48,989 nucleotides of DNA from Rhodanobacter denitrificans (lineage in GTDB: Bacteria > Pseudomonadota > Gammaproteobacteria > Xanthomonadales > Rhodanobacteraceae): the NCBI GenBank assembly GCA_017848855.1, contig JAFIHF010000013.1, positions 137,867-186,855 of the forward strand, written 5' to 3'. Position 1 is the first letter of the stretch. The number at the start of each line of letters is the position of its first letter. The translations under genes were made by a program, and so were the position numbers. Positions 28,275 to 29,266 of this stretch are shown here, in pieces. The notes beneath the pieces were generated by a model. That model was not told where the DNA came from. It searched no databases and saw only the letters and a program-made list of their open reading frames with translations.

Positions 28275-28749
28275 ATGAAACACGAAACCCTGATGCTGCA
28301 CGGCCTGTTCGCCGCTTGCCTGCTGGTCTGCGGCCCAGGGATGCTCTGATCTATTCCACGCACCCGGCATGACGTCCAGAAGGCCTGCAGGGTGTGTTGC
28401 GTGGCGCAGGGCAGACTGGCCGTCTGTTCAAGCCGCGCGACGCAGCCTGCGGGCCTTCTGGACGTCACCCCGTCAATTTGATTCAACACGTTGGGGCCGC
28501 GCTGTATGCGTGCAGCGCTCCGCCCCAGCGTCTAGACAGACAGCCAGTCTGCCTTCGCCGCTGCGACGAAGCGCTGCGCGCATACAGCACGGTGACGGGT
28601 GCGCGGAATAGATCAGAACATCCCTTGTGCTCGGCGCAATGCTGACGGCCCCGCTGCCGGCGGCCACCGCCACCCACGCGCTGGTTGCCTCGACCAACGC
28701 CTGCGTGGCGGCGGATGCCAGCACCGCTTGCCCGCTGCCGCGCGGCTGA
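28275..28749 (+). pseudogene. Paralogue of the small secreted-protein gene, split by a palindromic element
   Basis: The ATG at 28275 starts MKHETLMLHGLFAACLLVCG, nearly the same as its upstream neighbour, but the frame hits TGA after 24 codons at the edge of an inserted element. After the element the sequence resumes with VLGAMLTAPLPAAT and ends ACVAADASTACPLPRG at 28749. Removing 28337-28625 exactly restores one frame of 61 residues (LLVCGPVLGAMLTAP), matching the neighbour's LLVCTLVLGAMLTAT. The break is therefore an insertion and not random decay; no point mutations elsewhere disrupt the frame, which suggests a recent event. Confidence 0.8.
28337..28625. mobile_element. 289-bp MITE-like palindromic element with terminal inverted repeats
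   Basis: The ends are AGGGATGCTCTGATCTATTC (28337) and the inverse of AGGGATGTTCTGATCTATTC (ending 28625). The inverted match continues through CGCACCCG for about 32 bases with three mismatches. Inside are two further hairpins: GACGTCCAGAAGGCC (28371-28385) with its inverse at 28452-28466, and GCTGTATGCGTGCAGCGCT (28501-28519) with its inverse at 28570-28588. Their loops share an inverted GGCAGACTGGC module. There is no open frame of transposase size. No target duplication is evident. It would need a transposase in trans. Confidence 0.8.
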
Positions 28750-28798: not shown

Positions 28799-29266
28799 AT
28801 GCTGCACGTCATCCTGTTCCGCCCCGAAATCCCGCCGAACACCGGCAACGCCATCCGCCTGTGCGCCAACACCGGCGCCGCGCTGCACCTGATCCGCCCG
28901 CTCGGCTTCGCGCTCGACGAGGCGCGCCTGCGCCGCGCGGGCCTGGACTACCACGAGTACGCCCGCGTGCAGGTGCACGACAGCCTCGACCACTGCCTCG
29001 CCGCGATCGGCCGGCCGCGCGTGTACGCGTTCACCACCCGCGGCCGCACGCGCCACGTCGACGCGCGCTATGCCGATGGCGACGCGCTGCTGTTCGGCTG
29101 CGAAACCGCCGGCCTGCCCGCCGAAGTGCTGGACGATATCCCCGCGGCGCAACGCCTGTGCCTGCCGATGCGGCCGGACAACCGCAGCCTCAACCTCTCC
29201 AACGCCGTGGCGGTAGCCGTGTACGAGGCCTGGCGGCAACTCGGCTTCGACGGCGCCATCGGCTGA
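28799..29266 (+). CDS. trmL: tRNA (cytidine/uridine-34 2'-O)-methyltransferase
   Basis: A 155-residue SPOUT-class methyltransferase that 2'-O-methylates the wobble base of certain tRNA-Leu species. It has the TrmL start [27 protein letters not shown], motif 2 [11 protein letters not shown] and motif 3 [20 protein letters not shown], whose residues form the SAM-binding knot. Length is normal for the family. It stands upstream of ubiJ-ubiB, separated by a double-hairpin repeat. Confidence 0.95.

Follow-up and report, generated by a model that had tools for sequence, protein, structure and literature searches.

The window analysed here, a stretch of 48,989 nucleotides from Rhodanobacter denitrificans, contains a small gene that is interrupted by a palindromic element and that lies between an intact paralogue and the tRNA methyltransferase gene trmL (Table 1). 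Comparison with other copies sets the edges of the element at GGATG...CATCC, giving a length of 285 bp and ends that read GGATGCTCTGATC...GATCAGAACATCC. The original prediction had recognised the element but had drawn it 2 bp too wide on each side (28337-28625), taking in two flank bases per side that happen to lengthen the inverted repeat.

Table 1. Features of the interrupted locus (positions within the window).
Feature	Position	Strand	Basis or remark
Neighbouring paralogue, intact, 67 codons	28037..28240	+	
Interrupted small gene, ATG 28275, TGA ending 28749	28275..28749	+	Relatives have intact orthologues at this site
Left target-duplication copy, CCAG	28335..28338	.	One change from YTAR/CTAG; compared with copies that have exact YTAR duplications
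MITE, outer stem and two arms	28339..28623	+	114 end-paired copies, insertion sequence with the same ends, fold z -17.1
Left terminal inverted repeat, GGATGCTCTGATC...	28339..28369	+	Holds the TGA that stops the interrupted gene
Arm 1 hairpin	28365..28472	+	Inverted repeat I1; consensus fold with compensatory changes
Arm 1 tip module, C(UGGCC)G loop	28397..28444	+	Match to RNA model R1 (G000:C42:166263-166310); common to other element types
Inter-arm spacer, small CCCC/GGGG hairpin	28473..28496	+	
Arm 2 hairpin	28497..28592	-	Inverted repeats I3 and I4; tip (28536-28553) repeats that of arm 1 in inverted form
Right terminal inverted repeat	28593..28623	-	Inverted repeat
Right target-duplication copy, CTTG	28624..28627	.	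One change from CTAG
trmL (tRNA methyltransferase)	28799..29266	+	Anchor for locating the empty site in relatives

The outer ends form an inverted repeat of 33 nt (91% complementary), and the outer stem of about 30 pairs bears two long arms with a small hairpin between them. The inverted repeats of the arms span 41 nt in arm 1 (83% complementary) and 34 nt in arm 2 (85%), and the tips of the two arms are mutual inverted copies over 18 nt (94%). Two nested hairpins had been described here; the hairpins are present, but they stand side by side on the outer stem rather than one within the other. That nearly the whole element is self-complementary is supported in principle by a predicted folding energy of -204.6 kcal/mol, compared with a mean of -116.5 (sd 5.15) for 200 dinucleotide shuffles, none of which was equally stable (z -17.1). 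Being short, present in multiple copies, bounded by terminal inverted repeats and free of a transposase frame (the longest overlapping ATG/GTG/TTG frames are of 76-103 aa and either extend into the flanks or sit within the palindrome), the element has the attributes of a MITE. It contains no promoter-like or terminator-like site. The 13 Rfam matches obtained up to E 5 were to microRNA families throughout and fell short of the curated scores; they were rejected as a response to any long hairpin.

The interrupted gene and its empty site

The empty site that the original prediction proposed to look for in relatives was found by a search anchored on trmL, which covered 30 loci (own included) and recognised the whole gene by a simple motif. 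At least six relatives (L168, L169, L171, L172, L174 and L176) carry an intact second small gene at the same place, adjoined by the paralogue; at several other trmL-anchored loci this crude motif had no match. A Pfam search of the small protein gave no family at E up to 1.

Read with the element in place, the gene has 24 codons followed by a TGA inside the left terminal repeat, so that the insertion would have stopped it after those 24 codons. Excision of the element together with one flank copy, whichever of the two is taken, restores a frame of 61 residues. The earlier claim that exact removal restores a frame was thus right as to its length, but not as to the cut: excision at the wider edges yields a junction codon for Pro, while removal of the right-hand flank copy yields Leu, in agreement with the intact gene of the first five of these relatives (the sixth, L176, has Ser). 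Nor does the statement that no target duplication is detectable hold, as the two flanks read as a decayed 4-bp duplication, CCAG/CTTG, in which each copy is one change from CTAG.

Copies of the element and their flanks

Three copies with both ends are found in the genome itself, namely the window copy, one that is 92% identical to it and one that is 73% identical, and there are partial matches besides. Among 99 genomes, own included, the element is matched in 29 (E 0.001), of which at least 11 have near full-length copies and part have arm 1 only, which makes it a multi-copy element, one of the checks first proposed. A scan of named genomes with a 22-base end pattern, in which records close to the own genome may be absent, returned 81 stretches: 77 in Dyella, 2 in Rhodanobacter sp. 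MP7CTX1 and 2 in Rhodothermales MAGs. The Rhodothermales stretches (L282, L303) are single exact matches far outside the family, and may reflect transfer, contamination or chance.

Across the loci examined there are 114 end-paired copies, 51 of 280-299 bp, 16 of 40-79 bp and 14 of 140-199 bp; copies with decayed ends are under-represented in this set, because its members were located by means of the ends or through resemblance to the copy in the window. The 4-mers that flank these copies are identical in 45 of the 114 (a control ten bases further out gives 0), and YTAR occupies 134 of the 228 flanks, where 3.6 would be expected. YTAR stands on both sides of 50 copies, and in nine of these the two flanks differ, which suggests exchange between copies. 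A scan of open reading frames for gene disruption around 65 copies was crude and, in GC-rich genomes, uninformative, and was set aside.

Several observations concern the ends alone. One genome (G043) has 196 end-motif matches (at most 1 mismatch; control 0), including very many single ends and short paired ones (palindromes of 40-61 bp), which looks like a spread of the ends in the form of REP-like hairpins. A near-perfect palindrome of 90 bp with the ends of this family (L222:203-292) has 43 pairs and a 4-base loop. At L269, L271, L273, L294, L300 and others the end motifs are no further than about 110 bp from the start of a contig, as though assemblies were broken by the palindromes.

An IS5-type insertion sequence with the same ends

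The other check proposed at the outset was for a transposase gene that has these termini. Such a gene is present in an insertion sequence of 1188 bp, found intact in two copies in G011 and one in G032, with target duplications CTAA/CTAA and TTAG/TTAG in the former and CTAA/CTAA in the latter. Its transposase of 326 aa matches the NCBIfam IS5 family NF033581 with 350.6 bits (cut-off 140), as well as PF01609 (111.4 bits) and PF05598 (74.5). The first 19 bases of its end agree with the two element ends at 18 and 17 positions; over the first 24 bases compared, the match ends beyond about 19, and to that extent the interior of the element does not read as a deletion derivative of the insertion sequence. 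A relative of 1196 bp in G031 has a stop within the transposase frame and flanks TTAG/CTAG, and the numerous short PF01609 loci of the same genome (L135-L146) lack the end motif of the window-element family. More distant transposase relatives (L155, L157, L158, L159) have other ends, GGA...TCTGA, and YTAR duplications. We take the YTAR target to be a mark of an IS5 subgroup.

Multiple copies, a 4-bp target duplication (degenerate in the window copy), relatives in which the site is empty and a transposase-bearing partner that shares the ends bear out the proposal of a MITE-like mobile element. On these sequence comparisons it is well supported that the element is a mobile, non-autonomous MITE of IS5-type mobilisation, and the 1188-bp insertion sequence is probably its mobiliser, the transposase of which would have cut and pasted, or copied, the element in trans. 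No single strain was found to combine the insertion sequence and the element with matching activity, and the transposase is not matched in the own assembly (92.7% complete), nor in the copy-rich G053 and G051. That it was not found in the own assembly makes the window copy probably immobile now. This is also one of three observations that argue against the recent insertion first proposed, the others being that both flank copies have changed and that the second copy in the genome is only 92% identical. The conclusion that a MITE insertion broke the small gene, and that it is no longer young, is well supported.

Bodies that occur with different ends

The body of the window element (positions 30-221 of the element) recurs at L338 with unlike ends, the two bodies being alike at 146 of 190 positions. 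Five copies have such L338-like other ends, and three of these (L026, L030, L076; read from the sequences) are flanked by TTAA on both sides.

A second, more numerous palindromic element with two arms, about 266 bp long, occurs in the genome itself, with ends GAGCCTGTTCA, TNA flanks and an arm 1 tip shared with the window element (loci L005-L009 and L011-L013; 31 end-motif matches in G000). Its body was found with these ends in 14 copies, six of which have identical TNA flanks, and also with ends GGGCGTGTCATC (L340; 138 of 169 body positions alike). The two bodies, window type and ~266-bp type, share the inner part of arm 1 at 55 of 74 positions. No autonomous partner with ends GAGCCTGTTCA was found among the insertion-sequence loci examined.

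The tip model R1 was built without the A2 arms, which had been misaligned when the module was first aligned. It has matches in 25 of 59 genomes (the own genome among them), although the hits in one of these, G073, look like something else. G073, a genome of another family, is matched at 19 places with weaker E-values (best 1.5e-6); the hairpin examined there, L351, looks like an integron attC site, judging by its motif, and was not counted as the module.

Conserved fold and the strand sense of lone mismatches

In alignment A1, which holds 33 of the 41 listed copies (8 were dropped for length or large indels), 60 of the 96 consensus pairs have changes on both sides, and 97.1% of cells pair, compared with only 30-40% in slid controls. 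Double-change cells number 327 versus 84 in shuffles, none of 500 shuffles being as high. A conserved fold of this kind is in principle in line with the earlier suggestion that the element could form a long structured RNA. Compensatory change alone is no proof of function, since template-switch correction of palindromes can also yield such changes. The tip loop reads TGGCC or TGGCT in 49 of 60 arm-1 copies, in 48 of 60 arm-2 copies (on the other strand) and in 27 of 33 elements of the second type.

The sense of lone mismatches was analysed with a strand-symmetric pairing score that treats G.T and A.C alike, by parsimony on one tree and one structure, for 60 of the 114 end-paired copies (length 262-300, score above 150). 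It replaced a first test with separate folds per strand, in which the choice of fold biases the G.U counts. Changes to G.T and to A.C are equally frequent in the terminal stem (22:23), while arm 1 shows a ratio of 67:15 on the top strand (p 5e-9) and arm 2 one of 19:49 (p 4e-4), so that G.T is favoured there on the bottom strand. Pair-breaking changes in arm 1 comprise 46 C>T, 13 G>A, 19 A>G and 1 T>C, whereas all changes in arm 1 columns are balanced (65 C>T, 61 G>A, 33 A>G, 43 T>C). A plain mutational bias therefore fails to account for arm 1.

In 33 elements of the second type, those that pass the score and end-match cut, the corresponding ratios are 21:24 in the stem, 35:11 in arm 1 and 18:20 in arm 2, which in this type is without the tip module; the results for the two element types are not fully independent, because the tip is shared by descent. 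A point against a strand sense is that the bias is small (arm 1 10:6, arm 2 8:12, stem 24:22) once the count is limited to pairs predicted for both strands, which places the strand signal in pairs that occur on one strand. Overall stability does not clearly favour either strand (the top strand is more stable in 19 of 33), as expected if the arms have opposite sense.

Interpretation and alternatives

Taken as a whole, the locus is very probably best explained by a MITE that is moved in trans by an IS5-type transposase and the arms of which are kept as RNA. The latter part is less certain; we infer it as what best accounts for the strand signature together with the conserved tip loop, each arm behaving as if selected as an RNA read inward from its own end. 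The lack of a promoter-like or terminator-like site, and of an Rfam family over its curated score, speaks against this part. The tip module in each arm points inward from the nearer end of the element, so that read-through from either side would make a module-bearing hairpin first; this hairpin would then stabilise the flanking transcript, process it or attenuate it, in the manner suggested for the NEMIS RNA of Neisseria. A more far-reaching version, for the present tentative, is that what is conserved is the hairpin body rather than the ends. The body would then be an RNA module with a C(UGGYY)G-tipped arm, portable and independent of orientation, which would ride on MITEs, swap terminal repeats to use different transposases and act on read-through transcript from either side.

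It is possible, though the less favoured reading, that the element is a functionless plain MITE whose palindromes persist solely through template-switch (quasipalindrome) correction at replication, by which one strand of an arm is copied onto the other. Such correction is a mutational process described in the excerpted text of PMC7202029, and there are short palindromes, perfect or nearly so, that bear the same ends (e.g. 90 bp at L222, 56 bp at L219). However, it predicts no strand preference, in conflict with the opposite G.T biases of arms 1 and 2 next to a terminal stem that has none, and it leaves the conserved loops, and the body that is kept with differing ends, unexplained.

The strand signature could also arise at the level of DNA, if a single-stranded hairpin of fixed strand (lagging-strand DNA or a transposition intermediate) were selected, G.T being milder than A.C there too. 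This is rather unlikely, despite the fact that the strand favoured for G.T is, in both arms, the one leading inward from the end closest to the arm, and that some mobile elements act on folded single strands, since the insertion sequence is of the DDE type (PF01609), DDE transposases act on double-stranded ends, and there is no bias in the terminal stem, on which a step of that kind would rely. Movement as a REP/REPIN-type element by a RAYT (Y1) transposase instead of an IS5-type enzyme is very improbable, as the very short end-paired hairpins (16 of 114), the many single ends and the 196 end motifs in G043, REP-like as they are, are outweighed by YTAR duplications that are exact and by long inverted repeats at the termini that are identical to the ones on a DDE insertion sequence.

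Comparison with known systems

REP/REPIN-RAYT systems are palindromic and occur in many copies and in single and paired forms, as does the window-element family, which differs from them in its exact YTAR duplications and IS5-type ends. The IS5 family subgroup with YTAR duplications has the same terminal repeats and duplication as the element; an IS5-type insertion sequence carries a transposase, whereas the window element shares only the ends with it.

A search of the literature, covering titles and the openings of abstracts, gave no description of the window-element family. Insertion sequence-moved MITEs of bacteria, such as Correia/NEMIS, ERIC, RUP and Chunjie, are, as far as the excerpted texts of PMC10969869 and PMC2229807 describe them, likewise small and without a transposase frame, with terminal inverted repeats and target duplications, located within or between genes and predicted to give strongly folded transcripts. 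Compared with these accounts, the window element is larger (285 bp), has an outer stem with two arms and a tip module common to elements with other ends, and shows opposite wobble polarity of its arms. The CIR repeats of Caulobacter, in the excerpt of PMC2229807, resemble it in having two long arms joined by a linker and a conserved motif in the terminal loop, but are without the end-to-end pairing of the window element, and the motifs differ.

There is nothing exceptional about the window element as a MITE. Two features are unusual: a body that persists with changing ends, and lone mismatches whose strand sense flips between the two arms. If confirmed, this would offer a clean case for asking whether MITEs of bacteria owe their persistence to parasitism on transposases or to an RNA that is useful to host or element, and the same strand-symmetric test of wobble pairs can be applied to ERIC, Correia and others.
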